Shown in pieces: positions 2,886-47,739 of a stretch of DNA of 47,739 nt. Position 1 is the first letter of the stretch. The number at the start of each line of letters is the position of its first letter. The translations under genes and the position numbers were made by a program. The notes under the pieces are model-generated. The model worked only from the letters and a program-made list of their open reading frames with translations. It was not told the origin of the DNA and searched no databases. The stretch is from the NCBI GenBank assembly GCA_944391345.1, contig CALXTE010000014.1, positions 1 through 47,739 on the forward strand, read 5' to 3'. The DNA comes from an uncultured Alphaproteobacteria bacterium (GTDB taxonomy: Bacteria > Pseudomonadota > Alphaproteobacteria > RF32 > CAG-239).

Positions 2886-3433
2886 GAATCATCGGAGGTC
2901 GCTACCGCGGCAAAAAGCTGTTTTCGCCGCTATCGGAAGCCGTTCGCCCAACCTCGGACCGAGCGCGCGAGGCGGTGTTTAACATCTTGTATTCTCTTTT
3001 GCCGAATAACTGGGAAGATTACGACTTGCTTGAGATTTTTTGCGGCAGCGGCGCCTTTGGGCTTGAGGCCGTTTCAAGAGGAATAAAAAGCGCTTGCCTG
3101 ATAGATAAAGACACAACCACCGCTGCCAAAAACGCCGCCCTTTTTCCCGCTGAAAAAGACAAGATAAAACTCATCAAAGGCACGGCCGAAAATCTGCCTT
3201 TTGCCGATAAAAACAAAAAATATAATTTATATTTTTCGGACGCACCTTATCATCAGGGCTTGACCGAAAAAGCTCTTGATGAGGCGGTTAAAAAAGGCTG
3301 GCTGGCAAACGGTGCGGTCTGTGTTTTAGAAACCCACAAAGACGAACAACTTGCCATCCCCACATCCTTTAAGTTGCTCGACGAACGCTGCTACGGCATC
3401 GCCAAAATCACGATTCTGGAATATAACGCTTAA
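2882..3433 (+). CDS. rsmD: 16S rRNA (guanine-N2)-methyltransferase RsmD
   Basis: Methyltransferase for m2G966 of 16S rRNA, using S-adenosylmethionine. The N-terminus has the family signature IIGGRYRGKKL and RPTSDRAREAVFNIL; the SAM-binding motif I is EIFCGSGAFGLEA near residues 51-63. The substrate-amino-group motif, normally DPPY or DPPF, reads DAPY at residues 120-123, so one of the two conserved prolines is alanine. Length of 183 residues is normal. It overlaps the preceding pseudouridine synthase by 4 bp and is probably co-translated with it. Its 3' end also overlaps, tail to tail, by 4 bp with a Cys-rich secreted protein gene on the other strand, leaving no room for an independent terminator. 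Confidence 0.9.
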   Translation: MRIIGGRYRGKKLFSPLSEAVRPTSDRAREAVFNILYSLLPNNWEDYDLLEIFCGSGAFGLEAVSRGIKSACLIDKDTTTAAKNAALFPAEKDKIKLIKGTAENLPFADKNKKYNLYFSDAPYHQGLTEKALDEAVKKGWLANGAVCVLETHKDEQLAIPTSFKLLDERCYGIAKITILEYNA

Positions 3434-4434
3434 AACTCAATCACCGGCCGAACCGCATATCGGGTATTCTTTTTGTAGTCGTAGCCTAAACCATAACTGC
3501 TGCTGAAATTTGAGTACCATGCATCGTACTCATCATACTCAGTCGATGACCAAGCGTAGGTACTGGATGTGAATTGTGTTCCACCGGCTCGGCTAAATCC
3601 CGTGTTGATTACGCTTTGGTTATTGTATATCGAGGTAAATATTCCTGCTGCCGGTAAGCACCAATTTCCTGCCTTTGTTCCCGCAGTCGTATAATTATAC
3701 GCCGCCCATACTGCAGGAAATGGTGTTTCATCGCCTTGTGCTCTTATATTTTCACTATTCTCACAACTTGCATAGTCCTTTGACGCAAGAGTATTTGCTG
3801 AAAACGTACCACCTGTAACTAAATCTTGACACAAGTCAATCGTTGAATAGCAAGGATATGGATATGCAACTCCAGTACTATTATCGTAACATGTGTCTAT
3901 CCCTGTATACGTCTGACAAAATGAGTTGTCAGATATAGAATCTAATGCCATCGCTTGTCCGCATTTTCCATCAGAGGATTTATAGACGACCACAGCTATC
4001 GGTGTTTTCCCTGAAACTTTATTCGAGCTGCACGTTCCGTCACTGAACAAAATATCGCCAAGAGAACAGTTACGTCCGTTTCCATTGCACTGACCAAACT
4101 TGACAGTCTCCTTTAAGCAAGCGTTGTTTTTCAAAACATATCCTTCGGCACATTTACAAGAGATATATTTTCCTTCACAACTTTCTCCGACACCTCCGGC
4201 GTAGCCCGCGCCGGTGCAAGTGTACTTAAATCCATATTTTGAACAGACTTCAGATTCACTTGTAGCGCAGAACCACTTGTCGCCCCACGGGCATTTGACG
4301 CCGCCGTTCGGGCAAGAAGCTTCGGTATAGCCAAGACTTGCGCAATCCGGTGTGGCGGTACAAGTCGGGGTTTGAGCGATGGCGCTCATCGGCGCGATGA
4401 CTGCCGCGCTTGTCATTAAGATTAATTTCCTCAT
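3430..4434 (-). CDS. Secreted Cys-rich protein with DUF1566/lectin-like C-terminus
   Basis: Second gene of a two-gene unit, 16 bp downstream of the 4451-5353 gene. The 334-residue product begins with a signal peptide (MRKLILMTSAAVIAPMSAIAQ). Then come a small Cys module (CASLGY...KCPWGDKWFC), one ~37-residue Cys module (YTCTGAGYAGGVGESC...GYVLKNNAC), and from about residue 125 a domain resembling DUF1566 / Fib-succ-major proteins, with GKTPIAVVVY, GNWCLPAAGIF, AWSSTE and a terminal VRPVIEF. Such domains adopt a formylglycine-enzyme/C-type-lectin-like fold in known relatives (family knowledge). A Cys-bearing insertion near residues 170-215 is absent from the paralogue at 17968-18768. The last ~30 residues before VRPV are strongly divergent from the paralogues and rich in Tyr, Ser, Asp and Asn. 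Function unknown; probably exported and disulfide-bonded. Confidence 0.85.
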   Translation of the reverse strand: MRKLILMTSAAVIAPMSAIAQTPTCTATPDCASLGYTEASCPNGGVKCPWGDKWFCATSESEVCSKYGFKYTCTGAGYAGGVGESCEGKYISCKCAEGYVLKNNACLKETVKFGQCNGNGRNCSLGDILFSDGTCSSNKVSGKTPIAVVVYKSSDGKCGQAMALDSISDNSFCQTYTGIDTCYDNSTGVAYPYPCYSTIDLCQDLVTGGTFSANTLASKDYASCENSENIRAQGDETPFPAVWAAYNYTTAGTKAGNWCLPAAGIFTSIYNNQSVINTGFSRAGGTQFTSSTYAWSSTEYDEYDAWYSNFSSSYGLGYDYKKNTRYAVRPVIEF

Positions 4435-4450
4435 CTCTTTCTCCTTCTTG

Positions 4451-5353
4451 TTATAAGCACAGCATAAATGCGCTGTTATAGGGACATTTCAAAGCTCTGC
4501 CGCTGCAACTCGTCGACTTATAGCCCAAAGCCGCGCAATCGGTTATCGGTGCGGTGCAATAATTGTCATAATTCACCGCGCAGCCGGTGATATACCATTT
4601 GCCCGAACAATCCTCAAAGGTACATTCATAGCCCTCAGGGCAAGCAGACAAAGTACCGTTATTGGCGCAGGTTTTACATTCTTTATAAAGGGTAGTGGTG
4701 CCGGACAAACAAGTTTCCGTCCCCGCGATTGGTCCTAAATCTCCGCAAATCTGAAAGCCCTCGCAAGCTGCCGCCACAACTTGATATTTTGTTTGTCCGT
4801 CACAATCCAAACAAGGCTCGCCAAGTTGTTCATATCCGGCCGGTATCTCGGTTTCGGTATATTCCGAACCGCAAGGGGTGCAAGCGCAGGACGCATATTT
4901 GCCGCCGCAAGCCTCACCAACACCGACATAAGGTTCTTCGCAAGTTACATAACTACTTGGGCAAGTTGAAATACAATCTGAATAATAAGGACCGTATGGA
5001 CATTTCTTTCCCCCAGGGGCATACCACTCAGGACATTCGCTGACGGTAAAACCTTCATTAAAGCAGCGGTCATGAGGATTCATGTCAAAATCGGGTAAAT
5101 TGCCGCTGCCATTGCCGCCGAACATGGCGTCGGAACAAGCTGCTGTATCATTAATAAAGCACACCGCCGCGATTTGAAATTCATCAGAAGAAGGCAAACT
5201 TTGTGACGAAGCGTAAAGGTGTGTGTGAAGTGTGTAGACAAGCTGCTCGTCACTCTTGATAACAGAATTATCTGCTCTCACGCCACAAGGCGAAACACCT
5301 GTCGCAAAACTTAGCGCCGCGGTCAAAGCCGCCTTTTGTCGTGAGATAAACAT
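4451..5353 (-). CDS. Secreted Cys-rich family protein, N-terminal module type A
   Basis: Unrecognised 300-residue exported protein, member of the dispersed Cys-rich family in this window. After a signal-like N-terminus (about 28 residues, cleavage plausible after VRA) comes the shared module: LVYTLHTHLY, AAVCFINDT, KKCPYGPYYSDC, SYVTCEEPYVGVGEACGGKY, IPAGYEQLGEPCLDCDGQ, and CSGKWYITGC. It ends with a CAALGY...KCPYNSAFMLC element that resembles the start of its downstream partner. Cysteines are numerous and paired in spacing, which suggests a disulfide-rich extracellular protein. It has no membrane anchor or lipobox, so surface attachment is unknown. The start has AGGAG 6-8 nt upstream. It shares promoter, leader and architecture with the 17135-17947 gene, and is followed after 16 bp by the lectin-like gene. 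Confidence 0.85.
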   Translation of the reverse strand: MFISRQKAALTAALSFATGVSPCGVRADNSVIKSDEQLVYTLHTHLYASSQSLPSSDEFQIAAVCFINDTAACSDAMFGGNGSGNLPDFDMNPHDRCFNEGFTVSECPEWYAPGGKKCPYGPYYSDCISTCPSSYVTCEEPYVGVGEACGGKYASCACTPCGSEYTETEIPAGYEQLGEPCLDCDGQTKYQVVAAACEGFQICGDLGPIAGTETCLSGTTTLYKECKTCANNGTLSACPEGYECTFEDCSGKWYITGCAVNYDNYCTAPITDCAALGYKSTSCSGRALKCPYNSAFMLCL

Positions 5354-5388
5354 AATACTTCTCCTATCTCGTTTGCCTTCACGACTCG

Positions 5389-5417
5389 ATTATAGCATAA
5401 TTTTGCTAATCATGCAA
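5389..5417 (-). promoter_or_regulatory. Family promoter copy 1
   Basis: On the minus strand, -35 TTGCAT and -10 TATAAT are separated by exactly 17 bp, followed by CGAGTCGTGAAGGCAA. The 16-mer TAGCAAAATTATGCTA, an inverted repeat TAGCA-N6-TGCTA, lies over the spacer and -10 and could be an operator. The same arrangement occurs at four other family loci. It drives the 4451-5353 and 3430-4434 genes. Confidence 0.85.
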
Positions 5418-5499
5418 GATGATTTTTATTTTGCGATGGGAGTGTGGTGAAAAAAAAGATCTTGCGAGAAGGTCTTTATAAAAAACTTTAAGCTAGGGC

Positions 5500-6282
5500 T
5501 TAATATTTTATCTGTTTAATTTCTTTTGCTAAACCGGTGTTGTCATCAATATCAACCACGATTCCATAAACCGTACCGTTACTTTTACATGGCACTAGGC
5601 GGTTTCCGGTATATCGGCGTGCAATGCGATTAACCGGCTCTTCGATTTCAAAACCCAAAACCGAGTCATAATTGCCGCACATTCCAACATCGGTAATATA
5701 AGCTGTTCCTTGCCGCAACAGGCGATAATCAGAAGTCGGCACATGGGTATGTGTTCCGGCAACGACAGATACTTTACCGTCAAAATAATATCCGAAAGAG
5801 AGTTTTTCAGACGTAGCCTCGGCATGGATATCAACCAAAATTGCATCAACATTTCGCCCGAGATTATAGCTTTTTAAGAGCTTTTCCAAGGCTTGTACGG
5901 GGCAGTCAACCGCTTCCATAAACAAACGCCCCAAAACCTGAACCAGCAAGATTTTTTTGCCGTTAGGCAGCACAAATTCTGCCCAGCCGCGACCGGGAAG
6001 ATTCTCAGGATAATTAAGCGGACGCACGATTTTTTTGCAGTCATTCAGAAAGGGAATAATCTCTCTTTGCTGCCAAACATGGTTTCCGGTTGTTAGGCCG
6101 GTAACACCTTTATCTAAAAAGTCGCGGCAGATTCCGGGGGTAACGCCAAAGCCATGTGCAGCATTTTCAACATTAACGAAAATAGCATCGGGATTTAAGT
6201 CATTTTTTATTGTATTAATCTGGTTTAATAAGGCGTCGCGTCCGGCACGTCCGACCACATCTCCGCAATAAACAATACGCAA
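5500..6282 (-). CDS. YmdB-type metallophosphoesterase (TIGR00282 family)
   Basis: Member of the YmdB/TIGR00282 family of dinuclear metal phosphoesterases; characterised relatives hydrolyse 2',3'-cyclic nucleotides. All metal-binding motifs are visible: GDVVGRAGR at the N-terminus, NVENAAHGFG, TGNHVW, DIHAEATSEK, GTHTHVPT and TDVGMCG. Length of 260 residues is normal. In many alphaproteobacteria this gene lies in the zapA - 6S RNA - ygfA neighbourhood; here it follows the 6S RNA directly and ygfA (5-formyltetrahydrofolate cyclo-ligase) is missing from the interval. The start at 6282 begins MRIVYCGDVVG as expected. Substrate in this organism is not known. Confidence 0.9.
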   Translation of the reverse strand: MRIVYCGDVVGRAGRDALLNQINTIKNDLNPDAIFVNVENAAHGFGVTPGICRDFLDKGVTGLTTGNHVWQQREIIPFLNDCKKIVRPLNYPENLPGRGWAEFVLPNGKKILLVQVLGRLFMEAVDCPVQALEKLLKSYNLGRNVDAILVDIHAEATSEKLSFGYYFDGKVSVVAGTHTHVPTSDYRLLRQGTAYITDVGMCGNYDSVLGFEIEEPVNRIARRYTGNRLVPCKSNGTVYGIVVDIDDNTGLAKEIKQIKY

Positions 6283-6299
6283 TTTTTTCTTTCCATTTA

Positions 6300-6327
6300 A
6301 AACAAGAAAATCCCGAATTAGGGATTT
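6300..6327 (-). terminator. Hairpin after 6S RNA
   Basis: On the minus strand AAATCCC, a 6-nt loop and GGGATTT are followed by a T-containing stretch (TCTTGTTTT). It sits between the 6S RNA and the start of the phosphoesterase gene and probably ends or processes the 6S precursor. Confidence 0.55.
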
Positions 6328-6349
6328 CCAAAAATAAGGTTAGTAAAAC

Positions 6350-8377: not shown

Positions 8378-9184
8378 ATGTCTTATTTATCACCGAATTT
8401 AACCAATCTGATTGCGGCGGTTAAAAAAGCATCGCAGTCATTGACCAGAGATTTCAGCGAGATAGAACAACTGCAATCTTCGGTGAAGGATTATCGCACC
8501 TTTGTGATAAACGGCTATAACAAAGCCGAGCGCACGTTAAAAACCGAGCTGGCGCGCCTTCGTCCAAACTTTTCGTTTGCCGAAGACGGGAAACCGCATC
8601 CGCAAGGGGGCTATTTTGTAATTTCTGCCTTGAGCGGCATGAACAATTTTATTCATGCGATTCCATACCTGACAATGTCTGTTGCCATGTGTGAAAACGA
8701 CACAACCTTGGCGGCTGTGATTTATAACCCCATATCAGACGAGCTGTTTTTTGCCGAAAAGGGAATGGGGGCTTATAAAGAAGGCTTCCGCAGTCACGAG
8801 CGCTTGAGAGTATCATCTCGCAAAGAGCTTGCAGAGGCTGTTGTCTTTACCGAACCGTCTCACCGTGCAGAAAATCATGCCGAAGACAGCATTTTGTATA
8901 ATAAATTGGCAGCATCAACCGGTGCCGTTCGCCTGCTGGGCGATTCGAATTTAAGCTTGGCTTATGTTGCCGCCGGCAAGGCTGATGCCTTTGTTGCCAA
9001 AGGCCAGCAAATAAATGACCTCACAGCCGGTATCATGCTGGTCAAAGAAGCCGGAGGCTATGTTTTTGACATTAGTCAAAAAGACATCCGCACGGAAGAT
9101 TTACCGGCAGTAATTGCCTCTGGAGATATTATCGCGGTTAATGCAAATTTAAACAACAAGGTATATGATTTGCTCAATCGTTAA
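8378..9184 (+). CDS. Inositol-monophosphatase-like protein, catalytic residues missing
   Basis: Homologue of SuhB/inositol monophosphatase by overall sequence: MSVAMCENDTTLAAVIYNPISDELFFAEKGMGAY and GDSNLSLAYVAAGKADAF with LVKEAGGYV are diagnostic. However the metal-binding core is altered. The family motif D-P-x-D-G-T-x-N-F is replaced around residues 83-91 by SALSGMNNF, so both aspartates are lost, and the upstream glutamate motif GEE is AEDG. The last motif, WDxAAG, is NDLTAG and keeps one aspartate. The protein is 268 residues, full length, with no frameshift, so it looks like a maintained pseudoenzyme rather than a decaying gene. It lies 17 bp after efp and is probably co-transcribed with it. 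Confidence 0.85.
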   Translation: MSYLSPNLTNLIAAVKKASQSLTRDFSEIEQLQSSVKDYRTFVINGYNKAERTLKTELARLRPNFSFAEDGKPHPQGGYFVISALSGMNNFIHAIPYLTMSVAMCENDTTLAAVIYNPISDELFFAEKGMGAYKEGFRSHERLRVSSRKELAEAVVFTEPSHRAENHAEDSILYNKLAASTGAVRLLGDSNLSLAYVAAGKADAFVAKGQQINDLTAGIMLVKEAGGYVFDISQKDIRTEDLPAVIASGDIIAVNANLNNKVYDLLNR

Positions 9185-9212
9185 TGAACTAACGGAACTG
9201 GAAGGAAAAGAG

Positions 9213-10238
9213 ATGCTGAAAAAAACGGTAGCTTTAGGCGTTTGCGCAATAAGTTTAATGGTCGGAATATCATCAGGACATGCGGAAGATAATGTTGTGA
9301 TTGATATGTCTGTACTGGACAGCTTAGGCGCTCCGTCATCGGCAACCGTATCAAGTCCAAAGCCTCTTTTCCCGACAGTTAAGAAAAAAACTGCCAAGCC
9401 GAAAGTCAAGGCTAAAAAGGTAAAAAAAGCCAAAGCAGTAAAGACACCGAAAGTAAAGGTTGAAACCCCGAAACCCAAGGTCGCAGTACCGGAAGTAAAA
9501 GTTGAAACCCCGAAACCCAAGGTCGCAGTACCGGAAGTAAAAGTTGAGGCACCAAAACCCGAGGTCGCAGTACCGGAAGTAAAAGTTGAGGCACCGAAAC
9601 CCGAAGTTGTCGCACCGGAAGTAAAAGTTGAGGCACCGAAACCCGAAGTTGTCGCACCGGAAGTAAAAATTGAAACCCCGAAACCCGAGGTCGCTGCACC
9701 GGAAGTAAAGGTTGAAACCCCGAAACCCGAAGTTGCCGCACCGGAAGTAAAGGTTGAAACCCCGAAACCCGAAGTTGCCGCACCGGAAGTAAAGGCTGAA
9801 ACCCCGAAACCCGAGGTTGCAGTACCGGAAGTAAAGGTTGAAACCCCGAAACCCGAAGTTGTGGTGCCCGAAGTAAAAATTGAGGCACCCAAAAGAGAGG
9901 TTATTATATCTCAACCGCAAGCAAGCCAAGATTCTCAAGCCGGTATTATAACTTTTGCGCCGCAGCAAAGTGAGTTGGAAGATACGCAAAAGAAAATCAT
10001 AGACGACACATTGGCTTCCTTCCAAAATCCGAAAGTCAACAAGATGTCCATAATCTCATATAGTCTTTCGGGTGGCGAAAATGTTTTCCAAAACAAGCGA
10101 ATCAGCTTGAATCGCGCCGTCAATACACGGAGTTATCTTTTGGAAAAAGGTTATAAAAACTTTAGCATAAAGATAATAAATGTTGAAGCTGACGATGACA
10201 GAATCAACACAGTTTCCCTGACGGAACTAAAAAAATAG
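9213..10238 (+). CDS. Exported Pro/Lys-repeat protein with OmpA-like C-terminus
   Basis: The 341-residue product has a signal peptide (MLKKTVALGVCAISLMVGISSGHA), a Lys-rich segment, eleven 14-residue repeats of the type VKVETPKPEVAVPE (residues about 81-234), and a C-terminal domain of about 100 residues resembling OmpA-type peptidoglycan-binding domains (GIITFAPQQSELEDTQKKI, ISLNRAVNTRSYLLEKGY). Proline/acid/lysine repeats before OmpA domains act as spacers that reach from membrane to peptidoglycan, as in TonB-like or Pal-like proteins. The ATG at 9213 is preferred over the in-frame ATG at 9165 because it gives a clean signal peptide and has GAAGGAAAAG just upstream. The gene starts 28 bp after the phosphatase-like gene. 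Confidence 0.8.
   Translation: MLKKTVALGVCAISLMVGISSGHAEDNVVIDMSVLDSLGAPSSATVSSPKPLFPTVKKKTAKPKVKAKKVKKAKAVKTPKVKVETPKPKVAVPEVKVETPKPKVAVPEVKVEAPKPEVAVPEVKVEAPKPEVVAPEVKVEAPKPEVVAPEVKIETPKPEVAAPEVKVETPKPEVAAPEVKVETPKPEVAAPEVKAETPKPEVAVPEVKVETPKPEVVVPEVKIEAPKREVIISQPQASQDSQAGIITFAPQQSELEDTQKKIIDDTLASFQNPKVNKMSIISYSLSGGENVFQNKRISLNRAVNTRSYLLEKGYKNFSIKIINVEADDDRINTVSLTELKK
9453..9914 (+). repeat. Eleven tandem 42-bp repeats (14 aa)
   Basis: In-frame tandem repeat of 42 bp coding for units like VKVETPKPEVAVPE. Positions 5 (Thr/Ala), 9 (Glu/Lys) and 11-12 (Ala-Val, Val-Ala, Ala-Ala, Val-Val) vary between units while VK-E-PKP-V--PE is fixed. The last unit is degenerate. Repeat number is likely to vary between strains by slippage. 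Confidence 0.95.
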
Positions 10239-17071: not shown

Positions 17072-17100
17072 TTGCAAGCATAGCAAAATTATGCTATACT
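17072..17100 (+). promoter_or_regulatory. Family promoter copy 2 with palindrome
   Basis: TTGCAA, 17 bp, TATACT, followed by CGAGTCGTGAAGGCAAGC and the start region. TAGCAAAATTATGCTA at 17081-17096 is a perfect inverted repeat (TAGCA-N6-TGCTA) overlapping the spacer and -10. Similarity to the copies at 5.4 kb and 45.9 kb extends upstream to TTTTTTCACCA at about 17034. Confidence 0.87.
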
Positions 17101-17134
17101 CGAGTCGTGAAGGCAAGCTATGAAAGGTAATATT

Positions 17135-17947
17135 ATGTTAAATTCGCGACAATATGCGGTTTTAACCGCAGTGATTTCAGCGGTTGGAATAATACCGCTG
17201 AACGCAAAAGCTAATGTTTCTTTTCCGAAGTATGGAGAAGAGCTTATCGACACACTTCACACACACCTTACTTCTCCTTCTTTGAGTTTGCCTTCTTCCG
17301 ATGAATTTCAAATCGCGGCAGTCTGTTTTATTAATGACACTTCGGCTTGTGCGGACAGTATGTTTAGCGGCGGAACAAGTAGCGATGTTCCAAGTTTTGA
17401 CCTTAATCCCGACAAGCGTTGTCAGAACGAAGGCTATACGATTACGAGTTGCCCCGATGGTTATAAAGCCGGCGGCAAGAAATGTCCTTATGGCGCTTAT
17501 TATTCGGAATGTGTAAAAGCTTGTCCGAGTAATTATGTGACTTGTGAAGAACCGCATGTCGGGGTTGGTGAGCCTTGCGACGGCAAATATGCATCTTGTA
17601 CCTGCACGCCTTGCGGTGCCGGATATGATTATACCACAATCCCCGAAGGTTATGTCCAAGACGGCGAGAGCTGCCTCGATTGTGACGGACAAACAAAATA
17701 TAAAGTCAAAATCAATTCCTGCGACGGTTTTCAAGACTGCGGCTCTATGGGCGGCGCAGCCGGTGCGGAAACTTGTCAGTCCGGCAATACAATCAAATAT
17801 GATAACTGTAAAGCTTGTCCGAATTTAGGCACTTATACGAGTTGCCCGAGTGGTTCAGTCTGTGAATATGAAGATTGCTCAGGCTTGTGGTATGCCACCG
17901 GCTGTAAAAGTGGTTATACCGATTATTGCGACTATTGCGCAATGTAA
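17135..17947 (+). CDS. Secreted Cys-rich family protein, N-terminal module type A
   Basis: Exported 270-residue family member, closely similar to the 4451-5353 product through its full length. Signal peptide at residues 1-24 (MLNSRQYAVLTAVISAVGII). The shared module follows: LIDTLHTHL, AAVCFINDTSAC, CQNEGYTITSCPDGY, KKCPYGAYYSEC, NYVTCEEPHVGVGEPCDGKY, IPEGYVQDGESCLDCDGQ, CQSGNTIKYDNCKACPN, and SGLWYATGC. Unlike its paralogue it lacks the extra C-terminal CAALGY element; that element is instead at the start of the next gene. A first ATG at 17120 is in frame, but AAAGG ahead of the ATG at 17135 and agreement with paralogous starts favour 17135. Twenty base pairs separate it from the lectin-like gene. 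Confidence 0.87.
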   Translation: MLNSRQYAVLTAVISAVGIIPLNAKANVSFPKYGEELIDTLHTHLTSPSLSLPSSDEFQIAAVCFINDTSACADSMFSGGTSSDVPSFDLNPDKRCQNEGYTITSCPDGYKAGGKKCPYGAYYSECVKACPSNYVTCEEPHVGVGEPCDGKYASCTCTPCGAGYDYTTIPEGYVQDGESCLDCDGQTKYKVKINSCDGFQDCGSMGGAAGAETCQSGNTIKYDNCKACPNLGTYTSCPSGSVCEYEDCSGLWYATGCKSGYTDYCDYCAM

Positions 17948-17967
17948 GAAAACAAAGGAGAAAGAAG

Positions 17968-18768
17968 ATGAAAAAAATACTCTATACAACAACAGCATTT
18001 GTTCTTTGTGGCGGCATTGTGCAAGCAAATGCGGCCTGTATCGCCACCCCGAGCTGTACGGCAATGGGCTATACCAGCACCTCTTCTTGTGACGGCGGTC
18101 TCAAATGCCCGTTTGGTAATTATTGGAATTGTGATTTAGCGAATAAGATAAATGAGGTTACGACCCAAATAACGGAATTAGAAAAGAAGATAAATCAACA
18201 GCAACAACAAGAGAACTGTGTTATAGGAAGTATATTGTATGACGATATGACGTGTTCATTGACGGTCATTGCTGGAAAAACGCCAATAGGTATTGTTGTT
18301 TATTTAGGTCCGAGTGGATATCAGGCGCTAGCACTGGAATCGATAGGCAGCTATAATTGGGGTAGATATGGCAAGAATATCTCAACGTTAACAGACTATA
18401 CATCATCATCAGCAGCATCTAAGGATTATGATAGTTGTGGGAATACGGCAAAAATAATCGCGGCGGGTAATAAGAGTGCATATCCGGCAGCATGGGCGGC
18501 ACATGAGTATAAAACAGCAGGAACGGAAGCCGGAGATTGGTGCTTGCCGGCGGCAGGAATATTTACCTCTTATTATAATAACCAAGATGCGATAAATACA
18601 GGATTTAGCCGAGCTGGTGGGACACAATTCACAAAATACACCGAAGCTTGGTCGTCGTCCGAGGGCGATAGTGACTACGTGTGGAACTCATACTTTAGCG
18701 ATAGCTACGGTTTGACCTACTACAGTATGAATTACAGCTACGAGGTCCGCCCCGTCCTCGCTTTTTAG
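17968..18768 (+). CDS. Secreted protein with DUF1566/lectin-like domain
   Basis: Partner of the preceding Cys-rich gene, 266 residues. Signal peptide (MKKILYTTTAFVLCGGIVQANA), one small Cys module (CTAMGYTSTSSC...LKCPFGNYWNC), a short coiled coil (INEVTTQITELEKKINQQQQ), then a DUF1566-like domain from about residue 75 with GKTPIGIVVY, LALESIGSYNW, ASKDYDSC, AGDWCLPAAGIF, GFSRAGGTQF, AWSSSE and VRPVLAF at the very end. The coiled coil suggests an oligomer carrying lectin-like heads. The tail between AWSSSE and VRPV (about 18661-18744) is dominated by Tyr, Ser, Asp and Asn codons ending in C or T and differs strongly from the paralogues. A good AAAGGAGAAAGAAG precedes the ATG at 17968. Confidence 0.86.
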   Translation: MKKILYTTTAFVLCGGIVQANAACIATPSCTAMGYTSTSSCDGGLKCPFGNYWNCDLANKINEVTTQITELEKKINQQQQQENCVIGSILYDDMTCSLTVIAGKTPIGIVVYLGPSGYQALALESIGSYNWGRYGKNISTLTDYTSSSAASKDYDSCGNTAKIIAAGNKSAYPAAWAAHEYKTAGTEAGDWCLPAAGIFTSYYNNQDAINTGFSRAGGTQFTKYTEAWSSSEGDSDYVWNSYFSDSYGLTYYSMNYSYEVRPVLAF

Positions 18769-18788
18769 GTTTTTGTTCTTCAAACCAA

Positions 18789-20040: not shown

Positions 20041-20583
20041 ATGAAAAGAAGAGCAGATAGCGGCTATACCTTTGTTGAAGTTCTGGGTGTTTTGGGCATT
20101 ATCGGCATGATTGCGGTAAGCTCCAGTATGTTGGTAAGCAGCATTCTGGACAGATATCATAAAAATCGTACACAAGATGACATACTCACACTACAAAAGG
20201 TTATAAGTCAACGATATGTGGCGGATGGTAATTATTTAAAAGTTTCAGATCAAAAGCTCATTGATGAAAATTTAATTCCACGTTATATGGTCAGAAACAA
20301 CGGTATTGTTCAGCCCTATGGGGATGTAAAACTAATTTCCGGCGTCATGACTTATAAAATAAGATTTGATGGATTGCCACTTGCGGTTTGCGTGGCATTG
20401 GGAACGATGAATTGGGTCTATACGGACAGCTCTGATTTGGTGTCTATAAAGATTAACGATAAAAGTTATGAATGGCCTATCAATAAAAGTCAAAATGCAT
20501 CAGATGCCTTACCGGTGAGCGTGTCACAAGCCGCTGCTGTTTGCAAACGTGACAATAATGAAATCACTTGGGAGTTTCAATAA
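20041..20583 (+). CDS. Type IV pilin-like / pseudopilin protein
   Basis: 180-residue protein with a class III signal: basic leader MKRRADSG, cleavage after Gly8, then YTFVEVLGVLGIIGMIAV with Glu at mature position 5 and a hydrophobic helix. A prepilin peptidase (PilD-like) would process it. The rest is a soluble domain with strands and two cysteines (PLAVCVAL, AAVCKRD) that could form the C-terminal disulfide loop. Isolated pseudopilins of this kind occur in type II secretion and type IV pilus systems, none of whose other genes are in the window. It is followed after 11 bp by fliX. Confidence 0.78.
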   Translation: MKRRADSGYTFVEVLGVLGIIGMIAVSSSMLVSSILDRYHKNRTQDDILTLQKVISQRYVADGNYLKVSDQKLIDENLIPRYMVRNNGIVQPYGDVKLISGVMTYKIRFDGLPLAVCVALGTMNWVYTDSSDLVSIKINDKSYEWPINKSQNASDALPVSVSQAAAVCKRDNNEITWEFQ

Positions 20584-23660: not shown

Positions 23661-25070
23661 TTACCAAACAGGAATTTCATTACCATCATATCCACACATA
23701 CTACCTCCTTGACCTGGCGGTTCATCCATACAATAACCACATGCAGAGCTCCAATAATATCCACTTATGCATTTACATGATTTATATTTTCCATTACACG
23801 ATGTTCCTTCTCCTCCTGCATGAGTGGTGCTCGTGTTACATGTATATTCATAGCCTGCAGCTTCGCAAGGATCTTCACAAGAACTACCGTCCCACTCATA
23901 GCCGTTTGAGCAATAGCAAGAGCTATATTTTCCATTACATTCAGCCCCAGATGGACTTTCATAAAGGCCGGTACAAGTAAACCGGAAGCTACTATCGCAT
24001 GATACACATTTTCCTTTTATCCAACTATATCCGCTCGCACAAACGCAGGACTTATATTTTCCGCCACAAGCTGTGCCAGAGCCTTTCGAATATCCTGTTC
24101 CTTTGCAAGTATATTTAAAAGTATTTTTACATATGCAGTTACCATTACTCAAAGTATAATTTGTTTTACAAGATGTAATATAGTAAAGGTTAGAACATGC
24201 TTCAAATGTGCATTTTGCCCCTACAGGGCAAGAGGATAACGTTCCTAAATTCGGGCAAGGCTTGCAGTTATCATATTTTATTTGAGAGCCAGACATGCAT
24301 GTTTGGGCATCAGTATCACCGCCCATTGAACCGCAATCTAGGAAGCCGTCGCAAGGATTGATTTTGATTTTGTATTTTTTTGTTCCGTTACAGTCTACAC
24401 AAGCATCACCATCGGCAATATAGCCCTCAGGAATACTTGTATAATCATAGCCTTCACAGAGGTTACAACATTTGCCAAAAGTCTCATCATATTCGCACGC
24501 ATTGTTTGGATCTATTTTCCAACCACTTTGGCAGGTCTGAGTGTATTCTGAATTCAGTTCCTTACAAGCGCGTTCGGTATCTTTTTCACAATAAAGATAT
24601 TTATCCCCGCAGGCATCGCCAACGCCGTAATAAGGAGGTTCGCAAGTTTTGAAACCTGACGGACAAGTACATTTTGAAAAATATTTATTGTCATAAATAC
24701 AATACCCGTCTGGAATTTCCCCAGCGGCACAAGAGGTTAAAGTATAGCCTTCTTTGCGGCAACGCTCGGCATCATTCAAATCATAATCCGGCGTTCCACC
24801 ACTACTGCTGCCGTTTCCGCTACTGTTTTCAGTATTGCTAAATTCTGCGCCATTACAATTTTCAGTATCATTAATAAAACATACAGCCGCAAGTTTAACT
24901 TCTTTTTGCGAAGGCAAACCAGAAGAAGGAGAAGTAAGGTGTGTGTGAAGTGTGTAGATAAGCTCTTCTCCATACTTCGGAAAAGAAATATCAGCTTTTG
25001 CACTAAATGGAAGCAATCCTGCTGCTATTAGTATTGCGGTCAAAACCGCTTCTTGTCGTGAATTTTTCAT
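23661..25070 (-). CDS. Secreted Cys-rich family protein, module type B plus Cys repeats
   Basis: 469-residue exported family member. Signal peptide at 1-26. The shared N-terminal module is of type B: it has the family start (LIYTLHTHL, AAVCFINDT) but carries an extra region with TCEPPYYGVGDACGDKY, ERACKELNSEYTQTC and KIDPNNACEYD, shared only with the 33372-35390 protein. The family segment CDGFLDCGSMGGD and CPNLGTLSSCP follows. From about residue 315 there are three ~37-residue Cys modules of the form YTC-x-G...G-x-x-C-x-G-K-Y-x-x-C-x-C-x-x-GY-x-W. It ends with a short Gly/Pro-rich tail and has no lectin-like domain, so it is either a complete variant or has lost that domain. Promoter copy at 25106-25134. 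Confidence 0.86.
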   Translation of the reverse strand: MKNSRQEAVLTAILIAAGLLPFSAKADISFPKYGEELIYTLHTHLTSPSSGLPSQKEVKLAAVCFINDTENCNGAEFSNTENSSGNGSSSGGTPDYDLNDAERCRKEGYTLTSCAAGEIPDGYCIYDNKYFSKCTCPSGFKTCEPPYYGVGDACGDKYLYCEKDTERACKELNSEYTQTCQSGWKIDPNNACEYDETFGKCCNLCEGYDYTSIPEGYIADGDACVDCNGTKKYKIKINPCDGFLDCGSMGGDTDAQTCMSGSQIKYDNCKPCPNLGTLSSCPVGAKCTFEACSNLYYITSCKTNYTLSNGNCICKNTFKYTCKGTGYSKGSGTACGGKYKSCVCASGYSWIKGKCVSCDSSFRFTCTGLYESPSGAECNGKYSSCYCSNGYEWDGSSCEDPCEAAGYEYTCNTSTTHAGGEGTSCNGKYKSCKCISGYYWSSACGYCMDEPPGQGGSMCGYDGNEIPVW

Positions 25071-25105
25071 AATATTTACCTTTCATAGCTTGCCTTCACG
25101 ACTCG

Positions 25106-25134
25106 ATTATAGCATAATTTTAATCCATTTACAA
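25106..25134 (-). promoter_or_regulatory. Family promoter copy 3
   Basis: Minus strand: TTGTAA, 17 bp, TATAAT, then CGAGTCGTGAAGGCAAGC. The right half of the palindrome (TGCTA) is kept while the left half is altered. Confidence 0.82.
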
Positions 25135-33371: not shown

Positions 33372-35390
33372 CTAATAAAAGCATATATCATTGTAAGCAA
33401 TACATTCGCCGTGACACATCTGCCCTTCTCCAAAGCCGGCCTCAGGTCCGTTGCAAGCAGAGCAACGATAGAGCGTACTGCTTCCGGATAAACACCAGTC
33501 ATCATAATCAATAGCATCTGATTTACAATAGAATGACCAAGAATAACCGGGACAAGAATTAGCTTCACAAGCAGATCCACTCCAGCTATAGCCGCTCGCG
33601 CAAGAACAAGCTGTATATTTTCCGCCACAGGAATCCCCAGAAGGACTTTCACCTGAGCCAGTGCAAGTATATTGATAACTACTGCTGCACGCCTTGCACG
33701 TATCTGTTGTTTTATCATACTCATACCCTGATTGGCAGAAACCGATAACGGGACGAACATCGAGGCTAAACCCCGGACTGAAGTCGTCCAAGCCGTAATC
33801 GTAGAGGACGTTTGAGTACAACGCGTTGCCACTACGGAGCTTGGACGACGACCAAAGACGGGGTCTGTCTTCGAGTCGTGTTCCGCCCGCTTGGCTAAGC
33901 CCGTAATTGATCGAGCTATAGGTGAAAAAAAGTGAGTTTAATATTCCAGCCGCCGGTAAGCACCAATCGCCTACGCTTGTACCTTCTGTACTATACTCAT
34001 TCGTAGCCCATGCAGCCTGATATCTGTTATCTCCTAGTGCCATTATCTTTTTACTATTTTCGCAACTTGCTACGTCTTGTGATGCAGCTGCAACCGAATC
34101 ATAGTACGTTAAGCCCGGGATATCCGTACCATATCCGCCCCACTCATAGCTTCCTAACGAATTCAAAGCCAAAGCTTGTCCGCCACCATTTTCATAAGAA
34201 CAGACAACAACCCCGATTGGTGTTTTACCACTTTGTTTGGTCGGGGTTACGGTCATATCGCTATTAAGGACATGACCGATTTGAGAGCCTCTCATGCAAT
34301 CATTGTATTTTACACAAGATTCTCCACTCCAATAATATCCGCTAGAGCAAGTACATGCCTCATATAATCCATTACAAGCCGTACCGCTGCCGCCGGAATA
34401 ACCTGTTCCAGTGCAGGTATATTGATAACCACTGCTGCATTGCGGGGTGCAGGTTTGGGCGGTGGCATTCCAGTCATAACCGGACTGGCAACCGGATTTA
34501 TAATAACGATTAGAACATTCCTCATAAGTACAAGTGAATGGACTTGGGCAAGAACTTAAAATTCCCAAGTTTGGACAAGGTTTGCAGTTATCATATTTTA
34601 TTTGCGAGCCGGACATACAGGTTGTTGCGCCGGTGTCACCCCCCATAATGCCGCAATCCTGGAATCCGTCGCAAGGGTTGATTTTGATTTTATATTTGCT
34701 TGTTCCGTTACAATCAACACAAGCTGCCCCGTCAGCAATATAGCCTTCGGGAATAGTAGTGTAATCATAGCCTTCGCAAAGATTACAGCATTTTCCATAA
34801 GTTGGGTCATATTCACAAGCATTATTCGGATCAACTTTCCAGCCTGTTTGACAGGTGTCGGTAAATTCGGAATCTAGCTCTTTGCAGGCACGTTCGGTAT
34901 CTTCTTCGCAAGATGCATATTTATCACCGCAAGCCGTGCCGACGCCGTAATAAGGCGGCTCACAAGTTTTATAACCCGAGGGACAAACACAACGGGCAAA
35001 ATAATTGCTGTTATAAATACAAAAACCTTCCGGCGTTTCTCCGGCGGCACAAGAAGTCAGTCCATAACCTTCTTTGCGGCAACGTTCGGCGTCATTCAAA
35101 TCATAATCCGGTACACCGCCAGAGCCGCCATTACCGCCGGAAACCTCCTCACCATAGCCAAACATGCCGTCACTGCAATTTTTGGTGTCGGAAATAAAAC
35201 ATACTGCCGCCAATTTAATCTCATCAGAAGAAGACAAGCCCGAGGCCGGAGAATAGAGGTGTGTGTGAAGTGTGTTGATAAGTCGTTCTCCACCCTCGGT
35301 AAAAGAAATATCAGCCATTGCGCTCATCGGCAACAATCCGGCCGCCGACAGCATTGCGGTCAAAACCGCATATTTATGCGTATTCAACAT
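33372..35390 (-). CDS. Secreted Cys-rich fusion protein: module B, Cys repeats, lectin-like domain, Cys repeats
   Basis: Largest complete family member, 672 residues. It has a signal peptide (MLNTHKYAVLTAMLSAAGLL), then a type B N-terminal module close to the 23661-25070 protein (AAVCFISDTKNC, TCEPPYYGVGTACGDKY, KVDPNNACEYD, CDGFQDCGIMGGD). One ~37-residue Cys module follows (YTCTGTGYSGGSGTAC). The DUF1566/lectin-like domain (about residues 375-560) has GKTPIGVVVC, LALNSLGSYEWGGYG, VGDWCLPAAGI, LWSSSK and VRPVIGF. Unlike its paralogues the chain continues: CQSGYEYDKTTDTC, another YTCTGSGESPSGDSC module, and a Cys-rich end (CSACNGPEAGFGEGQMC). It therefore joins in one polypeptide what other loci encode in two genes. 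The lectin tail between LWSSS and VRPV is again divergent and NNC/NNT-rich. Confidence 0.87.
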   Translation of the reverse strand: MLNTHKYAVLTAMLSAAGLLPMSAMADISFTEGGERLINTLHTHLYSPASGLSSSDEIKLAAVCFISDTKNCSDGMFGYGEEVSGGNGGSGGVPDYDLNDAERCRKEGYGLTSCAAGETPEGFCIYNSNYFARCVCPSGYKTCEPPYYGVGTACGDKYASCEEDTERACKELDSEFTDTCQTGWKVDPNNACEYDPTYGKCCNLCEGYDYTTIPEGYIADGAACVDCNGTSKYKIKINPCDGFQDCGIMGGDTGATTCMSGSQIKYDNCKPCPNLGILSSCPSPFTCTYEECSNRYYKSGCQSGYDWNATAQTCTPQCSSGYQYTCTGTGYSGGSGTACNGLYEACTCSSGYYWSGESCVKYNDCMRGSQIGHVLNSDMTVTPTKQSGKTPIGVVVCSYENGGGQALALNSLGSYEWGGYGTDIPGLTYYDSVAAASQDVASCENSKKIMALGDNRYQAAWATNEYSTEGTSVGDWCLPAAGILNSLFFTYSSINYGLSQAGGTRLEDRPRLWSSSKLRSGNALYSNVLYDYGLDDFSPGFSLDVRPVIGFCQSGYEYDKTTDTCKACSSSYQYTCTGSGESPSGDSCGGKYTACSCASGYSWSGSACEANSCPGYSWSFYCKSDAIDYDDWCLSGSSTLYRCSACNGPEAGFGEGQMCHGECIAYNDICFY

Positions 35391-35424
35391 AATATCACCT
35401 TTCTTAGCTTGTCTTCACGACTCT

Positions 35425-35453
35425 AATATATCATAATCTCCTCATGCTTTCAA
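35425..35453 (-). promoter_or_regulatory. Family promoter copy 4 (diverged)
   Basis: Minus strand: TTGAAA, 17 bp, TATATT, then AGAGTCGTGAAGACAAGC. The leader motif is kept with two changes, but the palindrome is lost. Confidence 0.78.
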
Positions 35454-44102: not shown

Positions 44103-44188
44103 AATAAACTCCCAATAAAACAGCACGCGCAAAGGCGGCAGATTATAAACACTGAGGGCTGGCCAAAAAAAGAATTGATAAAACACAC

Positions 44189-44221: not shown

Positions 44222-44589
44222 AACAGCGAATGAATCGCCACAAAACCTTCGATTCTGTCTTCATGACAAAACAAAGGCTACCAAAAATCTTTTTCTTCCG
44301 AACAGCGCTGAATTATTCTTGCTTATTTATGCCGCTTTCGGAGCAAACCCTATAAAAAACTTTTCACGCTGTTATGATTGTTTTCAAAAAGCATAGAGGC
44401 GTCAAAAACATTTGAAACTATACACAAAGAAAAACGCCGAGTAACACAAAGAAAACTCATAACAAACAACAGAATATACGAATTGTTTAAAAAAACAACA
44501 AATTTTTGCAAAAAAGCAATATATTTTTTATTAACTCAATGGTAAGAACTATGAGATAGAATAATAAGAAGGAAAAACGGCAAAGAACG

Positions 44590-45843
44590 ATGATAAAAAC
44601 ATTAAAACATATAAGGACAATGGCGGAACGATGGCTAAAAACCATTTTTCCGGCATTTTTGCTTGTTTTTGCTTTGATGTTTAACCATTCTGCCAAGGCC
44701 GATGAAATCAGTTCTTTAAGAATAGGTCAGGGCATCGGAACCGTGCGCATTGTTCTGGATTCAGACAGCAAGTTTGAATATAAGGCTTTTTTGCTGGGGT
44801 CGCCGTCAAGATTGGTGATTGACACTTATGGGATAGATGTCAATCCGGATATAGAACACCAAATCACCAAAAATAATTTAATCAAGTCAGGGCGCATCGG
44901 CACCATAGAAAGTGACGGCCGCCGCATTGTTTTTGATTTAGCCAAACCTGCCGTAATCAAAAAGGCATTTATGCTGGCACCGCAAAGCAATTTTGGTTGG
45001 CGATTTGTGATTGATGTTGAGTTGGTTTCGCAAAGGGAGTTTAATTCAAAAATCGGCACCAGTCATGCTTATACCAGCCATGATAATCCCCAAAGCTATG
45101 CTGAAAGAAAAACACAAAAAAGCAGTGAACCCAAAAACAGCGAAAACATAAAAAAAGTCATTGTACTTGACCCCGGGCACGGCGGCAAAGACCCCGGAGC
45201 AATCGGCTATTCGGGTATGTATGAAAAAAACATTACGCTGGCCATGGGTAAAGAGCTTAAAACCATGCTTGATAAAACCGGAAAATATAAGGTTTACCTA
45301 ACCCGCAGCACCGACAAATTTATTCCTTTGCGCGACAGAGTAAAGATTGCCAGAAAATACAAGGCCGATTTGTTTATTTCTCTGCATGCTGATAGCACCA
45401 AAAATCGCAGCGCCAAAGGTCTGTCTGTTTATACCTTGTCCGAAACCGCATCAGACAAAGAAGCCGCCGCTTTGGCTGAACGCGAAAATAAAGCCGATGT
45501 GATTGCCGGTCTTAATTTGGTCGAACATTCAAAAGAAGTGTCTGATATTTTAATAAATCTGGCACAAAGAGAAACAATGAACCGCTCATCAGAATTTGCA
45601 ACTTTTATGGTGCAGGAAATGAGAGACGAAGCAAAGCTTGTAAATGATACCCATCGTTTTGCCGGTTTTGCGGTGTTAAAAGCGCCGGATGTTCCGTCTG
45701 TTTTGCTCGAGATGGGATATTTGTCAAACCGCGTTGAAGAGAGGTTGCTCAAACAACAAAGTTATCGCAAAAAGCTTGCGGCAGCCACCACCAGAGCTAT
45801 AAATCGCTATTTTGAAAATATGAAACACGCTTCATTATTTTAG
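44590..45843 (+). CDS. amiC: N-acetylmuramoyl-L-alanine amidase with AMIN domain
   Basis: Cell-wall amidase that cuts septal peptidoglycan during daughter-cell separation. Signal peptide up to about residue 37 (FALMFNHSAKA), AMIN domain (residues 40-150; GIGTVRIVLDSDSKFEYKAFLL), linker, and Amidase_3 domain with zinc ligands H197 (DPGHGGKDPGAIG), E212 (YEKNITL) and H266 (SLHADS); the catalytic glutamate is in SVLLEMGYLS. Length 417 is typical. AmiB/AmiC are not distinguished here with certainty. The ATG at 44590 has AAGGAAAAACGG a little far upstream; an in-frame ATG at 44620 is possible. Confidence 0.92.
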   Translation: MIKTLKHIRTMAERWLKTIFPAFLLVFALMFNHSAKADEISSLRIGQGIGTVRIVLDSDSKFEYKAFLLGSPSRLVIDTYGIDVNPDIEHQITKNNLIKSGRIGTIESDGRRIVFDLAKPAVIKKAFMLAPQSNFGWRFVIDVELVSQREFNSKIGTSHAYTSHDNPQSYAERKTQKSSEPKNSENIKKVIVLDPGHGGKDPGAIGYSGMYEKNITLAMGKELKTMLDKTGKYKVYLTRSTDKFIPLRDRVKIARKYKADLFISLHADSTKNRSAKGLSVYTLSETASDKEAAALAERENKADVIAGLNLVEHSKEVSDILINLAQRETMNRSSEFATFMVQEMRDEAKLVNDTHRFAGFAVLKAPDVPSVLLEMGYLSNRVEERLLKQQSYRKKLAAATTRAINRYFENMKHASLF

Positions 45844-45860
45844 TCCTTAAATAAAAAAGC

Positions 45861-45891
45861 AGCTCTCGTTCAATGCGAGAGCTCTTTTTTT
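45861..45891 (+). terminator. Terminator of amiC
   Basis: AGCTCTCG, 7-nt loop, CGAGAGCT, C and a T-run, 17 bp after the amiC stop. Confidence 0.9.
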
Positions 45892-45923
45892 CACCACACT
45901 TCCATCTCAAAACAAAAATAATT

Positions 45924-45952
45924 TTGCATGCTTAGCAATTTTATGCCATAAT
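45924..45952 (+). promoter_or_regulatory. Family promoter copy 5
   Basis: TTGCAT, 17 bp, CATAAT, then CGAGTCGTGAAGGCAAGC and the family start. TAGCA...TGCCA keeps the palindrome with one mismatch. The similarity to the 17.0 kb copy runs from TTTTTTCACCA into the first codons. Confidence 0.82.
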
Positions 45953-45986
45953 CGAGTCGTGAAGGCAAGCTATGAAAGGTAATATT

Positions 45987-46126
45987 ATGTTGAATTCGCA
46001 ACAAGATGCGGTTTAGATAGTAATAGTTTCAGCGCGTGGCGCTCTTACTTTAGAAGTAGCAATGGTTTTGAGGACCGCAACGGAAAGCTTACCAGCCGTG
46101 AGGTCCGCCCGGTGCTCGAGTTCTAG
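45987..46126 (+). pseudogene. Collapsed family gene: start joined to lectin-domain tail
   Basis: An intact family leader and start (MLNSQQDAV) runs after nine codons into a stop (46014-46016). In another frame the sequence continues directly with the last ~36 codons of a lectin-like domain (from 46016; AWRSYF, then a variable stretch, then EVRPVLEF and stop at 46124-46126). The whole middle of a two-gene or fused family locus is missing, so this is a deletion remnant, not a functional gene. The tail sequence matches none of the three complete copies at the variable positions, so it represents a fourth variant. A terminator follows at 46144. Confidence 0.88.
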
Positions 46127-46143
46127 CTTATCGTAAAAAATAC

Positions 46144-46170
46144 AAGGAGCATTAAGTCGCTCCTTTTTTT
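46144..46170 (+). terminator. Terminator after the remnant
   Basis: AAGGAGC, 8-nt loop, GCTCCTT and T-run. It would end any transcript from family promoter copy 5 before the EGF-repeat gene. Confidence 0.85.
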
Positions 46171-46179
46171 AATTGTTTA

Positions 46180-46208
46180 TTGAATTTTCATAAATTATGT
46201 GTTAACAT
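46180..46208 (+). promoter_or_regulatory. Possible promoter of EGF-repeat gene
   Basis: TTGAAT, 17 bp, TAACAT, about 35 bp before the start. It is unrelated to the family promoter; the -10 is weak. Confidence 0.45.
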
Positions 46209-46243
46209 AGAAATATTAAGGGAAAAACCAGAAAGGGTCTATT

Positions 46244-47739
46244 ATGGGAAATTCACAAAAATTAAAGCTTTGCGCAATAGCTTTTTTGTTGGCGGGGCTG
46301 TTTTCATTTAATGCCGCGGCTACTGTATGTTTTATTACAGATACAGGTGAATGCAAAGGTTTTGAGTTTAGTAATTCAACAGATTTTGAAGGGGGAAGGA
46401 ATACCCCGGGCTATGGTGATGATTATAATTTAGATAGTCAAGATCGTTGCAGAAATGAAGGTTACACAGTCGGATCTTGTCCCGAAGGCTACAAACCCAG
46501 TGGAAAAAAATGCCCTTATGGCCCTTATTATACAGATTGCACGGAAGAATGTCCTTCTAATTACGTATTTTGTGATGATCCGTTCATCGGTGTTGGCGAA
46601 GCATGCGGCGGGAAATATGCATTTTGCTGCCAAAACTGCGGAAGCGAATACTCTTATACCCAGATACCTGAAGGCTATGTCCAAGATGGCGAAGGCTGCT
46701 ATGATTGCAGTGGACAATATAAATATAAAATTAAAGAAAATAGCTGTGACGGATATTCTGAATGCGGTGGCCTAGGAGCCGATCCGGCAGCAACCATATG
46801 TTATAGTGGATCTACAATAAAATATAGCAAATGCAATGACTGCGCTTACAAGGGAACTTTAAAAACTTGTCCGAAACATGCGTTTTGCAGTCTTGAAGAA
46901 TGTTCACAATTATTATACATCACAGGCTGTGAAAAAGGATATATGATGGATGTTTCTGGCCAAAGCTGTATTTCGGAGAATCCTTGTGAAGATGTCACCT
47001 GTGGTGCCAATGCCACCTGCTCAAACGGCACCTGCCTCTGCAACAGTGGCTACGAAGGTGACGCAAACACCGGCTGTACCCCGATAGATAAATGTGCAAA
47101 CGTAACCTGTGGAGCAAACGCGACCTGCTCGAATGGCACCTGCCTCTGCAAAAATGGTTACGAAGGTGATGCAGACACTGGCTGTACCCCGATAGATAAA
47201 TGTGCAAACGTAACCTGTGGAGCAAACGCGACCTGCTCGAATGGCACCTGCCTCTGCAAAAATGGTTACGAAGGTGATGCAAACACCGGTTGTACACCAA
47301 TAGATAAATGTGCAAACGTAACCTGTGGAGAAAATACTTATTGTTATAACGGAGAATGTTTCTGCAACGCAGGTTATGAAGGTAATCCTGATAGCGGATG
47401 CACTAAAATAGATGAGTGCAAAAACACAACCTGTGGGGAAAATGCCTATTGCTATGACGGAAAATGCTATTGTAATATGGGTTACGAAGGTAACGCAAAC
47501 AGCAGCTGTACACCGATAGATAAGTGCAAGAACGTAACCTGTGGTGCAAATGCAACCTGCTCAAATGGTAGCTGCGTCTGCAACAGTGGTTACGAAGGTA
47601 ATGCAAATACCGGCTGTACACCGATAGATAAGTGCAAGAACGTAACCTGTGGTGCAAATGCCACCTGCTCAAATGGTAGCTGCGTCTGCAACAGTGGTTA
47701 CGAAGGTAATGCAAATACCGGCTGTACACCGATAGATAA
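46244..47739 (+). CDS. Secreted Cys-rich family protein with tandem EGF-like modules (3' partial)
   Basis: Open reading frame from an ATG at 46244 (AGAAAGGG upstream) to the end of the window without a stop, 498 codons so far. Signal peptide MGNSQKLKLCAIAFLLAGL. Residues about 27-245 are a third variant of the family N-terminal module: VCFITDTGEC, CRNEGYTVGSCPEGY, KKCPYGPYYTDC, NYVFCDDPFIGVGEACGGKY, IPEGYVQDGEGCYDC, CDGYSECGGLG, CSQLLYITGC. It lacks the LHTHL segment seen in the others. From residue 248 on, 36-residue modules follow with C-x4-C-x5-C-x4-C-x-C-x11-C, the spacing of EGF domains, and linkers PIDKC or KIDEC like those of calcium-binding EGF modules. The protein continues past the window, so its C-terminus and anchoring are unknown. 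Confidence 0.88.
   Translation, partial: MGNSQKLKLCAIAFLLAGLFSFNAAATVCFITDTGECKGFEFSNSTDFEGGRNTPGYGDDYNLDSQDRCRNEGYTVGSCPEGYKPSGKKCPYGPYYTDCTEECPSNYVFCDDPFIGVGEACGGKYAFCCQNCGSEYSYTQIPEGYVQDGEGCYDCSGQYKYKIKENSCDGYSECGGLGADPAATICYSGSTIKYSKCNDCAYKGTLKTCPKHAFCSLEECSQLLYITGCEKGYMMDVSGQSCISENPCEDVTCGANATCSNGTCLCNSGYEGDANTGCTPIDKCANVTCGANATCSNGTCLCKNGYEGDADTGCTPIDKCANVTCGANATCSNGTCLCKNGYEGDANTGCTPIDKCANVTCGENTYCYNGECFCNAGYEGNPDSGCTKIDECKNTTCGENAYCYDGKCYCNMGYEGNANSSCTPIDKCKNVTCGANATCSNGSCVCNSGYEGNANTGCTPIDKCKNVTCGANATCSNGSCVCNSGYEGNANTGCTPID
46985..47739 (+). repeat. Seven tandem 108-bp EGF-like units, array continues or ends beyond window
   Basis: Units begin at 46985, 47093, 47201, 47309, 47417, 47525 and 47633, exactly 108 bp (36 codons) each; the window ends one base before unit 7 is complete. 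Units 2 and 3, and units 6 and 7, are nearly identical (units 6 and 7 differ at one base in what is visible), whereas units 4 and 5 are more divergent (CGENTYCYNGECFC type). This indicates recent expansion by unequal recombination. Confidence 0.95.

Follow-up and report, generated by a model that had tools for sequence, protein, structure and literature searches.

Dispersed cassettes of secreted cysteine-rich and C-type-lectin genes, probably diversified in trans by a retroelement, in an uncultured alphaproteobacterium

Cysteine-rich and lectin genes of the window

The DNA analysed here, termed the window, is a stretch of 47,739 nucleotides from an uncultured Alphaproteobacteria bacterium (assembly GCA_944391345.1). 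It is contig C14 (CALXTE010000014.1) of a 1.63 Mb, 44-contig genome, termed G000, and the window end is the contig end. Five loci on both strands encode secreted proteins that share an N-terminal cysteine (Cys)-rich module, termed the N-module. This report concerns these loci, the lectin genes found beside them, and their relation to a diversity-generating retroelement (DGR) elsewhere in the genome.

The five loci and their variable ends had been described in the original prediction, and both points are confirmed by open reading frames (ORFs) and alignment. Two loci have nothing beyond the N-module, and the others carry Cys modules, a DUF1566-like domain with Cys modules, or EGF-like repeats (Table 1). 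Invariant Cys, Gly and Pro positions run through the alignment of the five members; the EGF-type member is missing ∼35 residues near its start. Signal peptides, in N-module and lectin genes alike, were called by eye. The N-module had not been recognized as a named family, and this is borne out: no family scores over its cut-off in Pfam (all five members), NCBIfam (three members scanned) or PHROGs (one member scanned), and a 15-member N-module profile has no match among PDB sequences. Four Pfam EGF families are above their cut-offs and one is just under in the EGF-type protein, with matches confined to its repeat tail and none on the N-module. Also as predicted, no transposase or integrase was seen on reading window ORFs of at least 125 amino acids, no family search having been made for them.

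A profile built from the five members finds 90 matching stretches in the genome. By our own reading these represent 30 N-module loci, 24 near-complete and six cut by contig ends; the count is approximate because many contigs end inside these genes, and some of the six cut copies may be halves of one gene. From the genome-wide profile matches, the recurrence of the module is more than chance, and the 24 near-complete copies support the multigene secreted repertoire that had been suggested. A lectin domain (C-type-lectin, DUF1566/Lcl-like) is fused to the N-module or encoded by the next gene at 23 of the 30 loci; the remaining seven have no adjoining lectin domain, some because the contig ends. 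A short Cys motif at the start of the lectin proteins resembles the N-module type (by eye). Tandem lectin-gene clusters without an adjoining N-module gene are found on contigs C7, C13 and C18 (L069, L070, L071, L072).

One upstream element is common to 22 of 23 aligned upstream regions, the exception being the EGF-type member. Judged by eye, it consists of TTGNAA-like and TATAAT-like boxes with a spacer of ∼17 between them. Its downstream part, used as a pattern, has 32 genome copies at two or fewer mismatches and 0 in the reversed control. The element precedes four of the five N-module loci of the window. The fifth window copy precedes positions 45972–46126, where the start of an N-module gene runs straight into a variable-repeat end followed by a stop codon, with the middle missing; from its sequence, this is a deletion scar of a cassette.

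Table 1. Positions of the cysteine-rich genes, lectin genes and associated elements in the window
Feature	Position	Strand	Remarks	Evidence
Secreted lectin gene	3430..4434	-	Downstream of site A N-module gene	Lcl_C 21.7 bits, under cut-off 34.9
N-module gene, short class, site A	4451..5353	-	Nothing beyond N-module	ORF, alignment, profile
Promoter element copy	5373..5401	-		Upstream alignment, pattern search
Promoter element copy	17088..17116	+		Upstream alignment, pattern search
N-module gene, short class, site B	17120..17947	+	Nothing beyond N-module	ORF, alignment, profile
Variable lectin gene	17968..18768	+	Downstream of site B N-module gene	Predicted C-type lectin fold
Candidate DGR variable repeat	18647..18766	+	In lectin gene 17968–18768	Adenine bias vs full template
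N-module gene, long class, site C	23661..25070	-	Added Cys modules	ORF, alignment
Promoter element copy	25090..25118	-		Upstream alignment, pattern search
Fused gene, site D	33372..35390	-	Long-class N-module, Cys module, DUF1566-like domain, more Cys modules	
Old variable-repeat-like stretch	33783..33855	-	Inside fused gene 33372–35390	Template DNA search
Promoter element copy	35409..35437	-		Upstream alignment, pattern search
Scarred cassette	45940..46126	+	Promoter element at 45940–45968	Template DNA search, pattern search
N-module gene with EGF-like repeats	46244..47739	+	Cut by contig end; without shared promoter element	

Retroelement components and adenine-limited variation

The genome has a single reverse transcriptase (RT) match, on contig C37, and an Avd gene lies before it. 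The RT is of DGR type, scoring 64.3 bits with PF00078 (cut-off 29.6) and matching PHROG 1423 at 1.9e-92; NCBIfam RT models match it only under their cut-offs. It contains the motif GLPIGNLTSQ, which we take to point to a DGR-type RT. Avd is recognized by PF22296 at 59.5 bits in this genome and 58.6 in G072, a genome of the same genus (cut-off 40). C37 opens with the last 26–28 bases of a repeat. A full template, which is non-coding, 120 bases long and rich in AAC codons, is found at C23:223-342, and the end only of a second template is at C23:1-68. The template DNA search yields 37 places in the genome at E ≤ 10, a number that includes the templates and whose weakest members are probably chance matches. 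The conserved 3′-end pattern of the repeats occurs at 23 sites with two or fewer mismatches and at 0 in the reversed control.

Differences between template and coding repeats are concentrated at template adenines. By motif, 32 coding repeats were found, and 22 of them are adenine-biased at p < 0.01. Pooled over these 22, 386 of 814 adenine sites are changed, against 207 of 1496 others. The 180-bp stretches upstream of the repeats, compared with one gene in each case, show no such contrast (480/1773 adenine sites, 998/3740 others). One repeat has changes at 14 of 37 adenine sites and at 0 of 70 others relative to the full template, and three more have 0 changes at the 33 non-adenine sites comparable with the second template. 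The same three non-adenine differences from the second template recur in three repeats, including 18647–18766, and a fourth repeat has those three and one more; a third template, absent from the assembly, is therefore inferred.

In the window, the repeat of lectin gene 17968–18768 is changed at 16 of 37 adenine sites and 9 of 70 others relative to the full template (p = 6e-4), and the gene fits a DGR target. The retroelement elsewhere in the genome thus appears to write into at least one window gene. The protein has a signal peptide, a short Cys motif, a low-confidence predicted helix at residues 55–81 and, in the predicted structure, a C-type lectin fold at 81–266, so that the variable repeat is at the 3′ end of a gene with this fold; the fold assignment at variable-repeat genes is taken from this one modelled gene. 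None of the window's lectin genes exceeds the Pfam cut-off for Lcl_C/DUF1566 (PF07603), and 17968–18768 and 33372–35390 are not among the matches listed; the core lectin gene of G072 exceeds it at 40.3 bits.

G072 displays the components together, in the order N-module gene, lectin gene, avd, template, template, RT, and avd, the lectin gene and the RT are all over Pfam cut-offs. Its template DNA has 24 matches, of which two are the templates; the other 22 places represent 17 distinct coding repeats by motif. All 17 are adenine-biased (280/660 adenine sites changed, 36/1057 others), and five are without any other change among 61–64 non-adenine sites. The new bases at changed adenine sites are G (137), T (109) and C (34). 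Upstream of the G072 repeats, the control has a slight adenine excess, 0.30 vs 0.23. In another genome of the genus, G068, 16 repeats were found by motif, 15 of them biased at p < 0.01 relative to the G072 templates (L262, L268, L273 and others).

Of 13 genomes with scanned loci, six have tandem templates: four in G128, three each in G069 and G043, two each in G072 and G075, and at least two in this genome. Those of G075 are not on the RT contig examined (C26 vs C30). Template units in arrays have a common spacer motif, seen by eye at L148, L150, L156, L157, L310 and L066. In a set of 154 genomes from the order, 26 have the RT at 1e-20 (9 of 12 within the genus) and 25 have the N-module at 1e-15 (12 of 12 within the genus), with up to 20 N-module candidates per genome scored. 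By hand count, both are found in 17 genomes, the module only in eight, the RT only in nine and neither in 120, figures uncorrected for shared descent. The named relatives are assemblies of uncultured Alphaproteobacteria or proteobacterium, and no relative was confirmed in the viral contigs searched.

Cassette differences between species

The sister genome G070 is collinear with window positions 18783–46013 except for the cassettes. With both flanks present in G070, the site of 23661–25070 is empty, and the site of 33372–35390 has the same N-module half and a different C-terminal half. With one flank present, a fused long-class protein is found at the site of 17120–18768 and another class at the site of 3430–5353. 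A third species, also with one flank present, has a separate lectin gene at the 33372 site. The expectation that C-terminal content would vary at the same sites is therefore upheld, the comparison being of sister species, not of strains.

The cassette at the site empty in G070 is located between convergent genes at a terminator hairpin. Neither a target-site duplication nor an insertion-sequence end was seen by eye at this site; dispersal by a mobile element was dropped for this reason, and no mechanism of movement is claimed. The core lectin gene beside avd was also compared between G070 and G077. The repeat is 79/94 identical with 15 gap columns, and the segment from the repeat end through avd is 561/569 identical. 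This was rejected as direct proof of hypervariation, because the 55 nt of lectin body available are only 40/55 identical and allele exchange confounds the comparison.

Two other window genes may be mentioned. Positions 9165–10238 encode a protein that by eye is secreted and has many tandem KPEVAVPEVKVE-type repeats, and 20041–20583 encode a short protein whose start resembles, by eye, that of type II/IV pseudopilins.

Proposed mechanism and comparison with known systems

The reading favoured here, with high confidence, is that each locus is one cassette in a repertoire of secreted binding proteins scattered over the genome; copies of one promoter would drive the cassettes, and one DGR would diversify them in trans. 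The common cassette would comprise a sigma70-like promoter, a secreted Cys-rich N-module gene and a secreted C-type-lectin gene. In variants the two genes would be fused or the lectin part absent, and other lectin genes would be clustered without an N-module. RT and Avd would copy the non-coding template repeats, misreading template adenines, and the cDNA would take the place of the 3′-terminal variable repeats of lectin genes located on many contigs, so that residues close to the lectin domain's end are altered. Fixed intergenic sites would also gain, lose and exchange whole cassettes. The targeting of lectin genes by the DGR is well supported at the sequence level. The sequences show the gene family, the promoter element, the templates, adenine-limited differences, one RT with an Avd gene, and sites that differ between species. 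We infer present activity of the RT on all these loci, a cell-surface location of the proteins, and a role of the N-module protein as the lectin protein's structural partner or anchor. The function would be binding of varied ligands, e.g. glycans or surfaces of neighbours, host or phage. The original prediction was thus partly right; the repertoire stands, and the membership of the lectin ends in a DGR was missed.

Several observations weigh against the DGR reading. Some concern the N-module: 18 of 41 lectin domains are not beside one, chiefly in the clusters on C7, C13 and C18; at the cut-offs used, the RT is missing from eight of 25 N-module genomes and the module from nine of 26 RT genomes; and the predicted structures are of low confidence for the N-module (pLDDT 55.6) and for the helix before the lectin domain of 17968–18768 (pLDDT 45–66). 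An alternative reading is that the N-module genes form a separate secreted repertoire, unconnected to the DGR and related to the lectin genes by position only. In keeping with this are the eight N-module genomes without the RT, the seven N-modules without an adjoining lectin domain, the 18 lectin domains without an adjoining N-module, and the lack of a lectin domain in window members 23661–25070 and 46244–47739. However, the core DGR cassette of G072 begins with an N-module gene, a lectin domain is next or fused at 23 of 30 N-modules in G000, and the Cys motif at the lectin protein start is similar; independence is therefore considered doubtful, although it is the strongest of the alternatives.

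Other adverse points concern the retroelement itself. The templates (C23) and the RT (C37) of G000 are on separate contigs, the avd–RT interval is without a template in G000 and two sister genomes (L005:1-2000, L146, L147), and the NCBIfam Avd model NF033474 gives only 57.6 against a cut-off of 80. Ten of the 32 G000 repeats have no significant adenine bias and the 207 non-adenine differences persist in the biased ones; templates missing from the assembly may explain these differences. In the window, the end of 3430–4434 has no bias relative to the one full template (14/37 adenine sites, 21/70 others, p = 0.27), and 33372–35390, which is biased yet far from the templates (22/37 vs 17/70, p = 4e-4), looks like an old DGR target. 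G068 has adenine-biased repeats yet no RT match at 1e-20; candidate explanations are that its RT was lost, was not assembled or is supplied otherwise.

Perhaps, then, this is an ordinary multigene adhesin family diversified by duplication, point mutation and recombination, with the DGR a fossil or confined to one core target. Cassettes that are mosaic and exchanged between sites, several repeats (two in the window) far from known templates, the repeats retained in G068 and the slight adenine excess upstream in G072 would all be in keeping with such a family. It is nevertheless improbable in view of the 17 adenine-limited repeats of G072, five of them unchanged at all other sites, the G000 repeat with 14 adenine changes and 0 others, and the lack of adenine contrast upstream of the G000 repeats. 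Slightly less probable still is that the repertoire works in defence or conflict sensing and not in adhesion. Such a role has been proposed for the DGR targets found in multicellular bacteria, and those of Thiohalocapsa are tied to NACHT and ternary conflict systems (PMC10907252). Against it stand the signal peptides seen by eye in both genes, the Cys-rich make-up, the fimbrial and Lcl-like fold, and the lack of a match to NTPase or effector families among seven (Pfam) and five (NCBIfam) window proteins.

A wider proposal, for which belief and disbelief are evenly balanced, sees in this small genome (1.6 Mb) a receptor repertoire with two layers. Several templates, arranged in tandem in related species, would supply one RT that rewrites two to three dozen scattered lectin genes, many of them with a copy of one promoter, while whole cassettes are shuffled among fixed sites. 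If true, large variable surface families would have a bacterial counterpart here, and the N-module protein would be a new dedicated display partner. With many dispersed lectin-gene repeats and one RT, genome-wide diversification in trans becomes testable, and a neighbouring protein family without assigned function is brought to notice. If the system is active, it would illustrate how secreted binders are kept in flux in an alphaproteobacterium that is apparently uncultured.

For the lectin fold, identity over the aligned part is 20% with the Legionella Lcl C-terminal domain (8q4e) and 15% with a Bacteroides fimbrial protein (4eps). Most DGRs in the texts consulted are described with one to a few targets, and one RT is apparently tied here to 17 (G072) or 22 (G000) repeats. 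DGR surveys for the most part describe one to four repeats close to the RT (PMC6642488, PMC3521204), the early one with up to four repeats in extended regions and some distal targets (PMC3521204); a metagenome survey states that its method would miss remote targets. The putative N-module partner sets the present system apart from surveyed DGRs, none being mentioned in the available parts of those texts (PMC6642488, PMC3521204). Among open-licence papers no report was found of this putative N-module partner, nor of any DGR from this group, a silence that speaks only weakly for novelty. For some templates, repeat copies number from a dozen to hundreds, and Pseudomonas costantinii has up to 91 pairs, with 21 merged repeats in one gene (PMC6642488); a high repeat count as such is therefore not new. 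Stenotrophomonas SKA14 has two templates, six repeats and five targets that are DUF1566 proteins (PMC6642488), and Thiohalocapsa has 15 targets in nine loci (PMC10907252).

Trichodesmium has 18 loci with template/repeat homology, at least 11 of them hypervariable in metagenomes, and two DGRs (PMC7517822, PMC8867640). Remote C-type-lectin targets are common to the cyanobacterial and present systems. In contrast to the two DGRs, signalling-linked targets and transposases near many of them in cyanobacteria, here there is one RT match per genome (G000, G072) and secreted two-gene cassettes. The Treponema denticola DGR, with 2–7 targets per isolate and eight proteins mentioned for SP23, is similar in having one RT and template with scattered targets, which are secreted or lipoproteins (PMC4891356). 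It differs from the present system, which has 17 (G072) and 22 (G000) adenine-biased repeats, tandem templates in several species and a Cys-rich neighbour gene. Overall, the DGR belongs to a known kind; its targets are numerous and dispersed, its templates stand in tandem in six of the 13 genomes, and its neighbour is a Cys-rich protein without a family name.
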